This document shows, one piece after another, positions 4,853 through 58,285 of a stretch of 64,000 nt of DNA; position 1 is the first letter of the stretch; every line of letters starts with the position of its first letter. The notes below the pieces were generated by a model that was not told the origin of the DNA, ran no database searches, and was given only the letters and a program-made list of their open reading frames with translations. The position numbers and the translations under genes are program-made. Source of the stretch: Pontiella desulfatans (lineage in GTDB: Bacteria > Verrucomicrobiota > Kiritimatiellia > Kiritimatiellales > Pontiellaceae); the NCBI RefSeq assembly GCF_900890425.1, contig NZ_CAAHFG010000004.1, positions 788,330 to 852,329 on the forward strand, given 5' to 3'.

Positions 4853-6642
4853 AAAAAGGACAATGGCTTTTAGTTGGACTGTACGCGGCCGCGACCGCGT
4901 TGGGCAATATTGGAGGGTTCTGCGCGGCGGTCGACGCCGATGGCACCAACGCCTATGTCGGGGCGGGGCAAATCCTGCTGCACGTCGATGTGTCGGACGC
5001 AGCGGCGCCCCGCCTGGTTTCGACGCGGGCTCTGCCCGGATTGATCGAGGATATTCTCGTGGACGGCGCAACGCTCTACGCGGCGTGCGGCGAGGCCGGC
5101 GTCCACAAGGTTGAGTTGCCGGGAATGGAGCTTTCCGCAACGTACGATTCCCCGGGCCATGCCTATGGCCTCGCCCGGGGCGGTTCTTCCCTCTATCTCG
5201 CCGACGGGGTTTCCGGACTGCAAGAACTCGATGCCGCAACGCTCGCCTCGACCGGCGGCTTCCTCACCAATGGGCCGGCCATGGATGTGGTGGTGGAAGA
5301 TTCGGCCGTGTATCTGCTCGACCACTTTAACGGGGTGATTGCGCTCGATGCTTCGCTGGCCGTGACCGGAGGCTACGACTTGGTCGCCTTCGGCAACCGC
5401 ATGGCGTCGGACGGCAGCACGCTTTACGTGGTCGATGGCCTGGGCAACCTGACCCAAGTCGATAGGGCCACCATGTCGGCCACCACCAACGCCCCCGCCA
5501 TCCCGACCTTCGGGATCGCGGCGGGGATGGCCATCGAGGGCGACCGGCTCTATGTCGCCGAAGGTTTCGGCGGCCTTTCGATATACGACACCACCACCGA
5601 AATCCTGCTCGGCACCTTTACCGGCGTGGCGCGTAGCCGCTCGACGGCCATCGCCAACGGCCTGGCCTACGTGGCCGCCGGCAACCAAGGGGTGCGCATC
5701 TTCGACCTGTCGGACTTTTCCCTAGTGGCATCCGTACCGGCCAGCAACGCGCTCGACGTGGCCGTTGCGGGAACCACGCTCCTCGTTGCCGATCCGCTCG
5801 TGGGGCTGGAGCTGTTCGATCTGTCCTCTCCGGCTGTCCCGGTGCATCTGGGCACCTACACCCCATCCTCCCCCGGGGCTGTCCGATGCGTCGGGGCAAC
5901 CGATTCCTTTGCCTATGTTGCCGAGGGCTACACCGTCCGCAAGCTGGACATCTCCACTCCGGCAACGCCGGTCGTGGTCGATAGTTTTGTTTCGGCCAAC
6001 CATGTTTTCGACCTGGATGTCTGCGGTACCAACCTCATCCTGGGCACCGGCGCGGTACACTCCGTTGCGGTGGATGGGACGCAGGGCTTGCTGGATTGGA
6101 ACCTGGTCGATCTTTCCGATCCGCTGACCCCGGTTTCGGTCACCAACCTAACGCCGCTGGTGCGCGCCCTGCGGCTGACGCTTTCGAGCAACGTGGTCTA
6201 TGCTTCCGCCGACGATGGCGGAACGGCGGTCCTCGCCTTGCCGCCTATCGCGAACGATTCCGACGGCGATGGACTCGAGGATTCGTTCGAGCAAATGATC
6301 ATCGATTTTGATCCGGGCGATGGCTTTGTTGATTTTGATAGCGTCGACCCCGACGACGACTTCGATGGCGACGGTCTCTCCAACCTTCACGAACAACTTG
6401 CCGGAACCTCCCCCGTCGATCCCGACTCCATATTCGCCATTTGTGGCCTCGACGGGGAGGCAACCGGTTATGCCGTAAGTTGGTACAGCTCCGCCGGCCA
6501 TACCTATTCCGTGCACAAGAGCACCAACCTGGTGGAAGGCTTCCAGGTGCTCAAGTCAGGCATCCCTGCAACCGAACCCATCAATACATATCTTGATCCT
6601 CATTCCAACGAGTGCGCCATGTATATGATTATAATTGACTAA
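4849..6642 (+). CDS. Secreted LVIVD-repeat beta-propeller in the hydrogenase operon
   Basis: 597 aa from ATG 4849, preceded by GAGGAG at 4835; ATGA overlap with the protease stop. A signal peptide (MKKGQWLLVGLYAAATALG) is followed by about ten blade-like repeats (pattern LYVADGxxGLxxxD, LDVAVAGTTLLVADP), typical of LVIVD propellers, up to about residue 460. Then come an acidic DSDGDGLED / DDDFDGDGLSN calcium-binding-like stretch and a C-terminal module (YSVHKSTNLVEGF ... MYMIIID) shared with the proteins at 11359 and 13694. Role unknown. Its coupling to a periplasmic hydrogenase suggests a partner or scaffold at the same location. Confidence 0.85.
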   Translation: MKKGQWLLVGLYAAATALGNIGGFCAAVDADGTNAYVGAGQILLHVDVSDAAAPRLVSTRALPGLIEDILVDGATLYAACGEAGVHKVELPGMELSATYDSPGHAYGLARGGSSLYLADGVSGLQELDAATLASTGGFLTNGPAMDVVVEDSAVYLLDHFNGVIALDASLAVTGGYDLVAFGNRMASDGSTLYVVDGLGNLTQVDRATMSATTNAPAIPTFGIAAGMAIEGDRLYVAEGFGGLSIYDTTTEILLGTFTGVARSRSTAIANGLAYVAAGNQGVRIFDLSDFSLVASVPASNALDVAVAGTTLLVADPLVGLELFDLSSPAVPVHLGTYTPSSPGAVRCVGATDSFAYVAEGYTVRKLDISTPATPVVVDSFVSANHVFDLDVCGTNLILGTGAVHSVAVDGTQGLLDWNLVDLSDPLTPVSVTNLTPLVRALRLTLSSNVVYASADDGGTAVLALPPIANDSDGDGLEDSFEQMIIDFDPGDGFVDFDSVDPDDDFDGDGLSNLHEQLAGTSPVDPDSIFAICGLDGEATGYAVSWYSSAGHTYSVHKSTNLVEGFQVLKSGIPATEPINTYLDPHSNECAMYMIIID

Positions 6643-43672: not shown

Positions 43673-43706
43673 CACGTCCGTACTCACGATCGTGAGCACG
43701 GACGTG
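43673..43706. terminator. 34-bp near-perfect loopless palindrome
   Basis: The arms are 17 nt (CACGTCCGT...) with one mismatch (T opposite C, G-U in RNA) and the centre is CACGATCGTG. It begins 7 nt after the stop of the zinc-ribbon EIIA gene and lies between convergent genes, so it can act on both strands. Compare 50399 and 58242. No T-tract. Nothing else is seen in 43707-43772. Confidence 0.65.
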
Positions 43707-49420: not shown

Positions 49421-50398
49421 ATGAGATGGGTTGCACTATTGCTTTGCATGACGGGCTTGCACGCGGCGTTCGGCGATGCCGCCTATGTCGATTATGAGCT
49501 GAAGCTCGTTTTCCCGGCGAAGCTGGGGGGGATGGACTGCGAAAAGGTCGAGAAATACAACAACGAAGACCTGGGCTTCTCCCTGTTCTACCAACGCGGC
49601 GACCAGTTCGATGCCGAGGTTTCGGTCTATAACCTGGGCCGTCCATCCATCGAAACCGGGCATGATGTGGATGGAATCGACATCGTGATCCGGAGCGTGG
49701 AAGACGACTACAAGCGCCGGGAGGAAGGCGCGGCGGTTTCCAACGTCCGCAAGCGCGGCACGATGGTGGTGCCCAAGAAGGGCGAGATCCAGTTTTCCAA
49801 CACGGTCTTCCAGTATCTGCAGCCCCGGGGCATCGACGGCCGCACCAACAATGTCCCGCGCATCCTGTCGGTCTACGCCACGGCGGCCCACAACCACTTC
49901 TTCAAGATCCAGTTCAGCTTCGATGTTGCCGGGAGCAAGGATGCCCGGCTGATGGCCGACCGCATGGTCCAGGAGCTTTCCACCACGATCAAGGGCGGCC
50001 TTTCGGAAGAGGAGCTGCTGCTGGCCGCCTGCACGGCCCTCATCCGCAACCCCGCCGACTATGGCGGCCGCGCCGCCGCCCAGCTTGTGCTGGCCCAATC
50101 GCAGACCATGGACAACCTCAACATCTATCCCCACCTCTTCGCCTGGCCGGACGGCTACCGCAAGCCCAAGAACGCCAATCTGCTCATTGCCGCCTATTTT
50201 GCCGGCATGATCCAGGTGGTGGTTCCGCAAAAGCTCGAAGCCGGCGGCGAATGCGAGGGCTTTATCGCCATGCTTTCGGCCTACGAGTCCCTGCGCAAGA
50301 ACGACCAGATCGAATCCATCCCCGACTTCGACGAATGGGTCAAGGCCGCCGACAAGAAGGCCCTGTTCCAGGAGCTGCTCTACGCCCCGGTCGAATAG
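49421..50398 (+). CDS. Secreted protein of unknown function
   Basis: 325 aa. Signal peptide (MRWVALLLCMTGLHAAFG), then a mixed alpha/beta body (YELKLVFPAKLGGMDCEKVEKY, FSLFYQRGDQFDAEVSVYNLG) and a helical C-terminal half (AAQLVLAQSQTMDNL, LRKNDQIESIPDFDEWV). No family recognised. Its stop codon abuts the left end of a 50-bp perfect palindrome. Confidence 0.7.
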   Translation: MRWVALLLCMTGLHAAFGDAAYVDYELKLVFPAKLGGMDCEKVEKYNNEDLGFSLFYQRGDQFDAEVSVYNLGRPSIETGHDVDGIDIVIRSVEDDYKRREEGAAVSNVRKRGTMVVPKKGEIQFSNTVFQYLQPRGIDGRTNNVPRILSVYATAAHNHFFKIQFSFDVAGSKDARLMADRMVQELSTTIKGGLSEEELLLAACTALIRNPADYGGRAAAQLVLAQSQTMDNLNIYPHLFAWPDGYRKPKNANLLIAAYFAGMIQVVVPQKLEAGGECEGFIAMLSAYESLRKNDQIESIPDFDEWVKAADKKALFQELLYAPVE

Positions 50399-50448
50399 CA
50401 GGTATATCATCCAGCACCCACGATCGTGGGTGCTGGATGATATACCTG
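50399..50448. terminator. 50-bp perfect loopless palindrome abutting a stop codon
   Basis: The left half (50399-50423, CAGGTATATCATCCAGCACC...) and right half (50424-50448) are exact reverse complements, centred on CACGATCGTG. It starts at the base after the TAG at 50396-50398. It would form a 20+ bp RNA hairpin. Compare 43673 and 58242. The rest of the spacer to 50563 holds only the ribosome site GGGAG at 50551. Confidence 0.85.
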
Positions 50449-50563: not shown

Positions 50564-53500
50564 ATGACACGCATTTTCTTATTGAGTGCCGCCTTGCTGG
50601 TTGGCGCCGCAACGGCCTTGGCCTACACCAACGTGCTGGATAACGGGGCCTACCAGTCGGTGACCAACGTCTGGAGCATCCCGGGGGAAGACCTGGTTGT
50701 GGGTTCCTCAACGAGCAGCAACCTGATGGAAATCGTGGATGGCGGGCACGTGACCAGCGCTAGGGGTATTCTCGGGCGGGATTCCTCGGCCTGGGTGAAC
50801 TATGTGTATGTCGAAGGCTCCGATGCCTCGTGGACGATGGCCGGGGATCTGTTCGTCGGGGATTCGGGATCGTCCAACTATCTGGAAATAAGCAGTGGGG
50901 GCGTGGTTTCGAACGCCAATGCCCATGTTGGCGGGGGCGGCTCAACGGCATACAACGAAGTTGCCGTCAGTGGTTCGGGATCGGAGTGGCACAATGCCGG
51001 AATCCTCTCCATCGGCTCGGGAACCAGTAATTTGGTTGGCGTTACCTCCGGAGGGTTGGTTGTTGCGGAGGGACTGCAAGTCGGCAGCGGCAGCGGTGGC
51101 TTCAGTCTCTATTCCGGTGGTACGTTCCGCGTGGGCGATCTGGATGCCGGGATGGACGGATTCAACTGGTTTGGGACGGGTTCACTGGTGATTACGAACG
51201 AGTTGACCGGCATGGTGGTTTCGAACAACTTCAACTATCTTGATGGCGGAAAAAGCCTGACGCTCGATGGCGGCACCTGGGCCACGGACACGAACCAGCT
51301 GGTGGTCGGACCCGGTTCTGCCGCAAACCTCTCCACCACCAACGGCGGCTGGGTTTTGGTGGGCGAGGCGCAGACCAATGGTGCCGCAGGCGGCATTATT
51401 GTGGCTTCGACGAACGGCGCGGAACTGGTGGTTGACAACGGTTCCCTGGTTGAAAGCGATACTCTTATTCTCGGCCAGGGCGATGCCACGGGCATGGCCT
51501 CCGTCACCAACGGCGGGGTTGTGAAGATCGGCGAGCTGGAAATCGAGGACGGCAGTGCGTTCAGCATCGATCGGGATGGCACGCTCTTCATGGCCGATGG
51601 CTTCGATTTCGATCCCCAGACCAACCTCAATTGGAGTGCGGGCGGTCAGCTGACCGTGGGCGGAACACTCACCAAGAGCAACGGGCTTGAGGGAACGGAA
51701 CGGACGCTCACCCTGCAGGGTGGCGACTGGACGCTGGGCGGACAATCGGTCGTTTCCGGAACCAACAACCAGTTCAATGTTGCGGAGGGCAGCGCGTTTG
51801 CTTCCACCAACGGTACGGTTTCGGGGTTGGGCAATGCGGTGCTCGTCCAGGGTGCAGGAGCGCTGTGGAGCAACGAAGGCGCGCTTACGGTGGGTGGGTC
51901 GAATAACAGCGTCACGGTTCAGAGTGGCGGGCGGGTTGAAACGGAGGGGCTCGATATCCAGGACGACAACGATTTCAACCTCAGCAGCGGCGGCACGCTG
52001 GCGATGACCGGCGACTTCGACGTTTCCGTCCATTCGAACCTGAACTGGAATTCGGGCGGCAACCTTTCCGTGGCCGGCGACCTGACCGGCATGACTTCGG
52101 TCTCAAACACCACGGTTGGCTACACGACCTATCTGAACGGCGGGCGCGACCTGACGCTCGACGGCGGCCAATGGACCAACGGGACGGATCACTTGATCGT
52201 GGGCTACGGCAGCTCCAACAGCGACCTGGCCATCACCAACGGCGCGGTGGTCGAGAATGCCAACGGCTATATTGGCTGGGGCAGCGCCAGCTCGGCGAAC
52301 TCGGTGCTGGTGGCCGGCGGCGGGTCGGCATGGAAGAACAACGGCGGCACGCTGAAAATCGGTGCGAATAGCTCCAGCGACAGCTCCCTGGTGGTCAGCA
52401 ACAATGCCTGGGTCTTCGTCGGCGAAGCCTCCACCAACGCACCCGGCGGCGGCATGCTGGTGGCTTCCACGAACGGGGCCAGTTTCATCGTCGCCGATGG
52501 TTCGGCCACGGTCGAGGAAACGCTTTACCTGGGGCTGGACACCAACACCACCGGCACCGCCACGATCCAAAGCGGCGGCACGCTCTCGGTGGGCGCTCTC
52601 GAGATGGCCGATGGCAGCTTCCTTGATCTGCTGAAAGGCGGGACCTTCGCCATTGGAGCGGATTTTAATTTGGGCGACTATACCACCAACGAATTTGTTT
52701 GGGGCGAGGGCGCGGCCCTTTCGGTGGGCGGAACCCTCACCGGTTTGGCCACCACCAATCTTGCCATGGGCGGGGCCACGAACCTCTACACCTATCTCGG
52801 CGGATCGCGCGACCTGATCCTGGACAGCGGCACCGGCTACCTGGACGCGGGCAACCTGGTGGTCGGCCTTGGTGCCGATGGCAGCGCGCTCACGGTGCAG
52901 GACGGAGCGGTGCTGGATAGCACCGATACCGTCATTGGCTGGGGAGCCGACGATGGCATGGTGGTCGTGACGGATGGCGGCAGCTGGAACAACATCGGCG
53001 ATGTGACCATCGGCTATCTCGGCGACGACAATACCCTGGCCGTTCTGGCCGGCGGCACCGCCACGATCGGCAACAACCTCCATATCGGCGGCGACGGTAC
53101 CTCCGGGAACATGGCCTCCGCTAACGGTTCGAACGCTGTGCTCGATGTCCTAGGCGACGTCTTTGTCGGCAACACCTCGGAGGTCGGCGGAAACGCACTG
53201 CTGGTGGACGATCTCGGCACGGTACGGGTTGGCGGTGATCTTACGCTTTACACCTCCAACAACATCGAGCTCTACAACGAAGGCACGATCGAGCTCATGA
53301 ACAACATGGTTGTCCATTCCAACAGCTTTATCCTTGGCTCCGGCACCAACCTGTTCTTGGGCAACAACACGACGCTCTCGTTCAATGGCACCGGCATTGA
53401 TGTTGACGGTGCGGTTATTTTTAAGGCGGAGGGCACCGGCAACAAGGTTGCCGTGAACGAGGGAGCGTTCGGGATTTCCGATACGGTCTCCGACCAGTAC

Positions 53501-54985
53501 CTTGGTTTCGATGCGCTAACGCTGACCAATAGCGAACTATATGGCAACGGCTCCCTGGATGCGTCGTCGTTCGATACCGTTGGTATGTCCGGTGGAGTGA
53601 TCAATCCCTCCGGCGAGGAAGAATATTTCTCCTTGTCATTCGGAACGCTCGAAATCGGCGGCGATGTCCAGTTTGACGATACGGAGTATTATGCCGAGAT
53701 CGCCATTGTGCAGGAGGATGTCCGACACGACCAGTTGGTGCTCAGCGGTTCCAACAGCGTGGATCTTTCCGGGATCGACCTGGAGGTCTATGTGCCCAAC
53801 TCGTTACCCGATACCAACATTGTCATCCTGGCGGCCGATGGCGGGTTCGGCGGTTCCGAGTTTGGTTCAACCAACATTGTCGACCGCATGTTGCTGTTCG
53901 ATGCCGCATTGGTGCTCGACGATGCCGGCACCGCAAGCATCCGCACGGAAGCCAACGGCACCAAGTTTAGTTCGGCGCTCGACTTTGCGGGATCGGAAGG
54001 CATCCGCGCGGGCTACGGCGCCATGAAAAACGCGGTGTTCGCGCGCACCAAGCAGCTCCGCCGCAACCTGGTTTCGACCGCCCATTCGCTTCCGCACGAG
54101 GTCTATCTCATGACCCAGACCAATGCCGCCCCGACCGGTGCGGAGGGCCCCGGCGACCAAAACACGGTCTTCGACATGCATGTCTGGATGCAATACTTCA
54201 ACGGCCAGGGCGTCTACGATGCCCAGGGCAATTCCTACGGCTTCGACCTCAACAATGGCGGAACCGTCATCGGGGCCGACCGCCTGTTCGGCGATGACCT
54301 GACCGTGGGCTTCAACTACACCTATGCCCGCTCCGATGCGCAGACCACCAACCTCGACTCCGTCAATACGGAAACCTATTGGCTCGGCGCCTATGGCGAA
54401 TGGGTTGGGGAGAACGGACTCTATGTGGACTCGCTGGCAGCCATGGGCTTCTCGAACTACGACTCCATCCGTCGCGAGGATAACTACGAGGGCACGGCCT
54501 CCTATAAGGGCAACAACATTGGAGCCTATGCCGACGTGGGGCAATACTACTACTATAAAAACCTGGCCCTCTCTCCCTATGTCGGCCTGCACTTCCTGCG
54601 GGTGGTGGCGAAAGAGCACACCGAAACCGAAGCGGAGAGCAGCGAACTGACGGTGCACGAATCCGAGCGCAACTGGCTCGAGTCCGCCGTGGGCCTCAAA
54701 GGCCGCTACCGTTTCGATACGCGCTACGGGCGCTTCCAGACCACCGGCTATGCCGAATGGACGCACGACTTCCTTAACGAGGATGTCTACTCCACCCTTT
54801 CGGCGGACCGGCTGCCCCCGGTCGACATGGCCCGCATCTCGCCGGATTCGGACATGTTCAACGCCGGCGTCGGCGTCAGCTGGATCTGCACCGACTACAT
54901 GGAAATCGGCGTCGGCTACAACGGGCGCTATAGCGGCCTCTACAAGGAACACACCGGCTCGCTCATGCTCGATATCATGTTCTAG
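50564..54985 (+). CDS. Autotransporter with T5SS/PEP-CTERM-type repeats
   Basis: 1473 aa from ATG 50564 behind GGGAG. Signal peptide (MTRIFLLSAALLVGAATALA). The passenger (about 21-1190) is a beta-helix of Gly/Ser/Asn-rich repeats such as LVVGxGSxNSxLxITNGAxV...GYIGWGS, resembling the T5SS/PEP-CTERM-associated repeat family; several blocks (LTLDGGxWxTGTDxLVVGxGS) recur four or five times. The C-terminal 280 residues form a type V barrel ending in SLMLDIMF with terminal Phe. Predicted surface-displayed or released adhesin-like protein. GltS follows 78 nt later. Confidence 0.92.
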   Translation: MTRIFLLSAALLVGAATALAYTNVLDNGAYQSVTNVWSIPGEDLVVGSSTSSNLMEIVDGGHVTSARGILGRDSSAWVNYVYVEGSDASWTMAGDLFVGDSGSSNYLEISSGGVVSNANAHVGGGGSTAYNEVAVSGSGSEWHNAGILSIGSGTSNLVGVTSGGLVVAEGLQVGSGSGGFSLYSGGTFRVGDLDAGMDGFNWFGTGSLVITNELTGMVVSNNFNYLDGGKSLTLDGGTWATDTNQLVVGPGSAANLSTTNGGWVLVGEAQTNGAAGGIIVASTNGAELVVDNGSLVESDTLILGQGDATGMASVTNGGVVKIGELEIEDGSAFSIDRDGTLFMADGFDFDPQTNLNWSAGGQLTVGGTLTKSNGLEGTERTLTLQGGDWTLGGQSVVSGTNNQFNVAEGSAFASTNGTVSGLGNAVLVQGAGALWSNEGALTVGGSNNSVTVQSGGRVETEGLDIQDDNDFNLSSGGTLAMTGDFDVSVHSNLNWNSGGNLSVAGDLTGMTSVSNTTVGYTTYLNGGRDLTLDGGQWTNGTDHLIVGYGSSNSDLAITNGAVVENANGYIGWGSASSANSVLVAGGGSAWKNNGGTLKIGANSSSDSSLVVSNNAWVFVGEASTNAPGGGMLVASTNGASFIVADGSATVEETLYLGLDTNTTGTATIQSGGTLSVGALEMADGSFLDLLKGGTFAIGADFNLGDYTTNEFVWGEGAALSVGGTLTGLATTNLAMGGATNLYTYLGGSRDLILDSGTGYLDAGNLVVGLGADGSALTVQDGAVLDSTDTVIGWGADDGMVVVTDGGSWNNIGDVTIGYLGDDNTLAVLAGGTATIGNNLHIGGDGTSGNMASANGSNAVLDVLGDVFVGNTSEVGGNALLVDDLGTVRVGGDLTLYTSNNIELYNEGTIELMNNMVVHSNSFILGSGTNLFLGNNTTLSFNGTGIDVDGAVIFKAEGTGNKVAVNEGAFGISDTVSDQYLGFDALTLTNSELYGNGSLDASSFDTVGMSGGVINPSGEEEYFSLSFGTLEIGGDVQFDDTEYYAEIAIVQEDVRHDQLVLSGSNSVDLSGIDLEVYVPNSLPDTNIVILAADGGFGGSEFGSTNIVDRMLLFDAALVLDDAGTASIRTEANGTKFSSALDFAGSEGIRAGYGAMKNAVFARTKQLRRNLVSTAHSLPHEVYLMTQTNAAPTGAEGPGDQNTVFDMHVWMQYFNGQGVYDAQGNSYGFDLNNGGTVIGADRLFGDDLTVGFNYTYARSDAQTTNLDSVNTETYWLGAYGEWVGENGLYVDSLAAMGFSNYDSIRREDNYEGTASYKGNNIGAYADVGQYYYYKNLALSPYVGLHFLRVVAKEHTETEAESSELTVHESERNWLESAVGLKGRYRFDTRYGRFQTTGYAEWTHDFLNEDVYSTLSADRLPPVDMARISPDSDMFNAGVGVSWICTDYMEIGVGYNGRYSGLYKEHTGSLMLDIMF

Positions 54986-58241: not shown

Positions 58242-58285
58242 CATGCCACGCATCTCGCCACGGCCGTCGTGAGATGCGTGGCGTG
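58242..58285. terminator. 44-bp near-perfect loopless palindrome
   Basis: Arms of 22 nt (CATGCCACGCATCTC...) centred on ACGGCCGT, with one mismatch and two G-T pairs. It starts 3 nt after the stop at 58239. Third of a set with 43673 and 50399. The following stretch to 58360 shows nothing I can assign. Confidence 0.75.

Follow-up and report, generated by a model that had tools for sequence, protein, structure and literature searches.

The perfect 50-bp palindrome at positions 50399-50448 of our window (the whole 64-kb stretch of DNA that was analysed, C4:788330-852329 of the 8.66-Mb Pontiella desulfatans genome) is a dispersed repeat whose relatives bracket a PaaX/Cas2-like gene elsewhere in the genome, a property that the original prediction had overlooked. 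We think it rather likely that palindromes of this kind are non-autonomous extragenic repeats copied with the help of the linked PaaX-like protein, and the association of PaaX-like genes with palindrome families points to a system for spreading short palindromes that has not been described before and relies on a protein unrelated to the known one. Our literature search, which had most subscription journals and preprints outside its reach, found no earlier account linking PaaX with such palindromes.

Re-computation of the symmetry confirmed the predicted structure: the sequence at 50399-50448 is its own reverse complement (25+25, with no mismatch and no spacer; CAGGTATATCATCCAGCACCCACGA|TCGTGGGTGCTGGATGATATACCTG) and, as had been claimed, it starts directly after a stop codon, the TAG that ends the ORF 49421-50398. 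The claim that such a structure is beyond chance also held, the next-longest loop-free perfect palindrome in the window having arms of 7 nt; across the 1.17-Mb contig, 38 palindromes scored at least 11 versus 1 in an equally long first-order random sequence. RNA folding of the 50-bp palindrome gave z = -9.0. An assembly artefact is an unlikely source, because about 20 copies of the family lie on five contigs with different flanks and further copies occur in independently assembled relatives. The gene upstream of the palindrome has orthologues in 17 of the 27 other genomes of the genus, and no family palindrome was found beside them among the BLAST matches in the searched genus genomes (the search with the window family left out G040 and G042, of which G042 alone was searched, with a different family query). 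Because these orthologues have no adjoining family palindrome, the window copy was probably gained in the present lineage, as judged from sequence comparison, which agrees with the earlier suggestion that the palindrome is recent or selected; this absence beside orthologous genes is the sole direct sign of a gain. The features of the window are collected in Table 1.

Table 1. Palindromes and host genes in the window (positions counted from its first base)
Feature	Position	Strand	Basis
Perfect 50-bp palindrome, solo	50399..50448		Family of PaaX-like gene C4:582953-583804; 18/18 arm positions match one gene flank
44-bp family core GTATATCATCCAGCACCCACGA|TCGTGGGTGCTGGATGATATAC	50402..50445		Alignment of 17 copies; C3, C1 and C5 cores 100% identical
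Extension CAG, particular to this copy and palindromic with CTG at 50446-50448	50399..50401		Symmetry beyond the core
Centre ACGATCGT, common to families with unrelated arms (nCGR|YCGn)	50420..50427		CG..CG invariant in 21 palindromes
Upstream host gene, 325 aa, no Pfam match, TAG abuts palindrome	49421..50398	+	ORF, profile search
Downstream host gene, autotransporter beta-domain	50564..54985	+	PF03797 E=5e-42 (ORF from upstream GTG 50471); start 50564 predicted
Second solo palindrome CACGTCCGTACTCACGA|TCGTGAGCACGGACGTG	43673..43706		Family of PaaX-like gene C5:27173-27964, 17/18 arm match; about 7 nt from predicted stop codon
Third solo palindrome GCCACGCATCTCGCCACGG|CCGTCGTGAGATGCGTGGC	58245..58282		Assigned to family of PaaX-like gene C1:3339464-3340270, 15/18 arm match

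The family of the window palindrome occupies about 20 places across the five contigs, and four genomes of the same genus hold additional members, most of them more divergent. Bases outside the 44-bp core are copy-specific and often still symmetric (CAG/CTG in the window, CCTA/TAGG, TTTTAA/TTAAAA and others); these palindromic extensions run 1-9 nt into the host flank, and the mean length of symmetry past the core is 2.5 nt (35 copies) versus 0.6 nt at control positions further out (p=1e-6). Two sub-families differ at several arm positions, each change being mirrored in the opposite arm, so that most copies remain perfect palindromes. No target-site duplication was seen by eye in the aligned copies, whose flanks bear the short extensions, and the palindrome had no Rfam match near the gathering score. 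The centre extends well beyond this one family: the genome has 54 occurrences of CACGATCGTG and none of its reversed control, and of the 76 long loop-free palindromes in an unselected 2.43-Mb sample (one contig plus portions of two more), 49 have the centre CG(AT or GC)CG. Among 21 palindromes from different loci and species, CG..CG was the sole invariant part of the centre, while 17 of 18 pairs varied on both sides, a pair count biased towards symmetry by the choice of well-formed palindromes for building the covariance model. Palindromes of other kinds were also encountered. The perfect palindrome (C)CAAGCACACTTGC|GCAAGTGTGCTTG(G), which is centred differently and has no known partner gene, is repeated at C4:1102298, at C2:320065, 472794, 1135633 and 1135670, and at L023:6291-6316; the 30-bp perfect palindrome GCAGTCGGGGAACCC|GGGTTCCCCGACTGC recurs at C4:615201, C2:1169041 and L011:7606-7635 with the same flank bases on both sides and is probably part of a longer repeat; and a lone 56-bp perfect palindrome at C4:1080554 (AGGGGGCGGTCCTGTGAAATAATGTTTT and its complement) is not of the nCGR|YCGn type. 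At L027:1457-1576, a palindrome whose arms reach 60 nt or more stops at the end of contig G012:C389; it may be an assembly artefact produced by fold-back around a family palindrome.

A pair of window-family palindromes flanks the gene at C4:582953-583804, which encodes a protein with PaaX_M (Cas2-like; 2e-24) and PaaX_C domains. The genome contains nine PaaX_M/PaaX_C genes, the other eight being 45-51% identical to this protein and one of them carrying an internal stop, and all nine (9/9) lie between two nCGR|YCGn palindromes, the gap to the gene end usually being 20-60 bp. The arms of the flanking pair are specific to each paralogue, and the centre nCGR|YCGn is all that the nine pairs have in common. 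The left-hand and right-hand arms of a given locus match at 12.5 of 14 positions, compared with 6.0 for arms from different loci, with no overlap in 10,000 permutations, and an arm's own partner ranked first in 35 of 40 loci. Protein identity tracks arm similarity weakly overall (Mantel 0.28, 2/2000 permutations) and clearly only among close relatives. Two PaaX-like copies, C1:4199226-4200023 of P. desulfatans and C2:1457387-1458195 of G021, are broken by a stop or a shift of frame but are still palindrome-flanked, so the pair outlasts the gene. At another locus, palindromes (L013:4997-5048 and 5142-5190) provide the C-terminal codons (KYIIQHPRS...) and the stop of a glutamyl-tRNA-synthetase-like gene and a PaaX-like gene, and palindromes can thus become coding ends.

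The PaaX-like protein passed the Pfam gathering scores for PaaX_M (85.8 vs 24 bits) and PaaX_C (28.6 vs 22), and its best matches among solved structures were E. coli PaaX (8a39, E=1.4e-9) and M. tuberculosis Rv0674, followed by a second PaaX-like regulator and Cas2. It thus shares the two domains and the fold of the PaaX repressors but falls far below their equivalog cut-off (TIGR02277, 55.4 bits vs 264.55), occurs as nine paralogues and is bracketed by palindromes; the pair was absent from all seven canonical PaaX genes tested as controls (E. coli paaX and six actinobacterial genes, canonical actinobacterial PaaX being all that a plasmid search yielded). The AlphaFold2 model (pLDDT 83) shows a helical/winged N-terminus of low confidence, then a Cas2-like domain of beta-alpha-beta-beta-alpha-beta order and, at the C-terminus, a helical part; the predicted winged helix-turn-helix is a putative DNA binder. 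Like Cas2, the protein has a ferredoxin-like domain with an aspartate ending its first strand (D113, invariant in 43 homologues), whereas here the domain is fused to a winged helix and PaaX_C. Foldseek comparison with Cas2 structures gave probabilities up to 0.97 with E-values above 0.2. The Cas2 equivalog TIGR01573 had no match to the Pontiella protein (P0001) and scored the Roizmanbacteria homologue below its cut-off (19.4 vs 24.5), and a defence library gave no match for the former and weak Cas2 matches for the latter.

A GTDB-wide scan identified 55 homologous PaaX-like loci, which together with the nine of P. desulfatans gave 58 loci with complete flanks, drawn from Kiritimatiellota, Lentisphaerota, Verrucomicrobiota and one Roizmanbacterium. 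A centred palindrome was present on both sides in 40 of these, on one side in 14 and on neither in 4, some of the last (L106, L108) having matching palindromes with another centre. Among the predicted genes of two contigs, used as a control, 8 of 1789 had palindromes on both sides and six of the eight were themselves PaaX-like genes; relative to the remaining control genes (2 of about 1780), the enrichment at PaaX-like loci has a Fisher p of about 1e-65. The Roizmanbacterium genome (G058, 1.3 Mb) carries 8 PaaX_M genes and 'bacterium isolate AUK161' (G061, 0.6 Mb) carries 3, and their loci (L288, L289, L292-L300) have several palindrome pairs with more varied centres. A viral origin of the protein was rejected, since 0 of 20 candidate viral stretches encode a relative. 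Gene and palindrome also co-occur: in 58 related genomes, palindromes were detected by the covariance model in 20 and the PaaX-like gene in 19 (both in 16, gene only in 3, palindrome only in 4, neither in 35), with p=4e-8, a value that overstates independence because the genomes are related to each other. We count the four genomes with palindromes and no detected gene, and the three with the reverse, against our main reading; G024 and G042, which have the gene and are negative by the covariance model, contain family palindromes by BLAST. Orthologous PaaX-like genes keep the same neighbours across species (for example the seven trpB-side loci, L050 and L059-L064, and other groups), while their flanking palindromes differ between species, both sides together. 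The gene is therefore a resident of its locus, and its palindromes turn over in step with it. In agreement with this turnover, P. sulfatireligans (G021) has solos of its own family version with no match in the P. desulfatans genome (G000), and the P. desulfatans version is absent from P. sulfatireligans.

The solo palindromes can be assigned to individual genes. In the 2.43-Mb sample, 37 of 40 solos fit the arms of one of the nine PaaX-like genes at 15 or more of 18 positions, a score that 10 of 20,000 random draws reached. Some of the nine families are supported by few solo copies (one to four), and three solos that a score of 15 places with the C2:492678 paralogue appear nearer to a family seen in relatives (L076-L079) and may be orphans in this genome. 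Although the contigs are 86% coding, 32 of 36 solos are intergenic; a stop codon is no more than 20 nt away in 13 of these 32 (expectation 7.9%, p=4e-7) and a start in 4 (expectation 8.9%, no significant difference), the gene calls coming from a simple codon-usage script so that individual distances may be off. These positions bear on the main rival reading, in which each PaaX-like protein binds its palindrome to repress its own gene together with a dispersed regulon, with no mobility involved. PaaX is a known repressor, the protein matches it by Pfam and fold, and the palindromes beside a PaaX-like gene could be operators, a point that we count against our own reading; there are two palindromes per gene, and coevolution of regulator and operator would yield paralogue-specific arms. 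However, the solos lie behind stops rather than before starts, the conserved dyad is 40-44 bp long and has a match downstream of the gene as well, the symmetry continues into unique flanks, and the canonical PaaX genes have no such pair. Identical cores at unrelated sites in P. desulfatans and in G052 look copied rather than converged: G052 has ten copies with identical 20-nt arms and similar palindromic extensions at unrelated sites, and these repeated arms indicate recent amplification there. Weakened by the position behind stops and by the copied look of the solos, the operator reading is in our judgement unlikely, though it deserves to be kept in mind.

The location of the solos also fits palindromes that serve as bidirectional terminators or mRNA 3'-end stabilisers under selection, unconnected with the PaaX-like gene, as does their very stable predicted hairpin. 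A hairpin at transcript ends was implied by the original prediction, and this part did not hold up: no U-tract follows the palindrome 50399-50448 on either strand, on which ground we rejected an intrinsic terminator at this site, and T-rich tails beside the stems of 36 solos (6/36) are no commoner than in other intergenic DNA (15.8%). To address DNA versus RNA, mismatch counts were preferred to covariance pair counts; in the solos, which had also passed a symmetry score, 27 of 648 cells were non-Watson-Crick and G-T showed no excess over A-C (6 vs 6). The equal counts and the missing T-tract enrichment disfavour selection for an RNA stem or a canonical terminator, and the symmetry looks to be kept at the level of DNA. 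Since termination would in addition leave the matching of arms to one PaaX-like gene each unexplained, we regard selected terminators or stabilisers as improbable; an influence of family palindromes on transcript ends is possible, given their preference for sites just 3' of stop codons.

Where dispersed palindromes of bacteria have a known dedicated protein, that protein is a RAYT transposase, and CGTC REPs are among the families with no known protein partner (PMC3733652). The likeness to REP/RAYT is considerable: both comprise short multi-copy extragenic palindromes that for the most part lie downstream of genes, together with a dedicated gene that the same repeats flank, and in both a genome holds several families, every one with a gene of its own. 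The genome moreover has 17 Y1_Tnp (RAYT-like) matches over the cut-off alongside its PaaX-like palindrome families, so RAYT (Y1) transposases might be what moves these palindromes, which would then be REP elements, the PaaX-like genes being mere bystanders. We find this highly improbable and RAYT disfavoured as the mover, for each of the six Y1_Tnp matches examined in the sampled contigs is 18-71 kb away from any family solo while all nine PaaX-like genes are bracketed, and REP stems have an unpaired tag, GTAG or CGTC, at their base (PMC3733652) that has no counterpart here, inspection of the flanks revealing no conserved bases outside the symmetric core. The present palindromes also differ from REPs in being fully symmetric around a fixed centre, nCGR|YCGn, in numbering tens rather than hundreds of copies, and in being linked to a PaaX/Cas2-like winged-helix protein instead of an HUH Y1 transposase. 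The MITEs of insertion sequences are likewise short non-autonomous inverted repeats that share ends with a gene-bearing unit, but here that unit stays at one locus between species, as in the trpB-side group and others, and no multi-copy transposon of the PaaX-like gene-bearing unit was seen.

The arrangement that we favour would be a two-part system, made up of a resident PaaX-like gene with one family palindrome on each side and of solo copies between genes, often directly 3' of stop codons. The protein would recognise its own family palindrome as DNA (a duplex dyad, a cruciform or a hairpin) through the centre and the family-specific arm, and would promote its copying to new sites, a movement in trans in which we infer a role for the Cas2-like domain. 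Copying may proceed by fold-back, with one arm serving as template for the other, which would account for the perfect copies, the mirrored changes and the symmetry running 1-9 nt into the host flank. This mechanism is a hypothesis; the association itself is firm, and the family structure, the gene-arm pairing, the co-occurrence, the placement behind stop codons and the vertical inheritance of a gene whose palindromes change have been shown. That flanking symmetry could have another source, namely the old stem of a host terminator hairpin into whose loop the solo was inserted, a variant of our main reading that keeps its core claim. Insertion sites directly 3' of stop codons and extensions of 1-9 bp would both be expected from it, but extended stems would then be followed by T-tracts more often than was found, and we give the variant little credence.

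It is a serious possibility, against which we lean slightly, that this is a new DNA-mobilising class, in which each protein with a Cas2-like domain propagates its own family of short, perfect palindromes through fold-back copying of a hairpin or cruciform, and which spans Kiritimatiellota, Lentisphaerota, Verrucomicrobiota and Patescibacteria. Such a class would be a counterpart of RAYT/REP built on an unrelated protein, and a second setting besides CRISPR adaptation in which the Cas2 fold handles DNA for insertion. Palindrome families in several phyla, very small Patescibacteria genomes included, here have a one-to-one tie to a Cas2-like/PaaX-like protein that is not homologous to RAYT, and the pairing of arms with proteins offers ready predictions of recognition specificity. 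Should the protein act on the palindromes, Cas2-like domains would have a DNA-mobilising role outside CRISPR, and many 'PaaX family transcriptional regulator' annotations would be misnamed.
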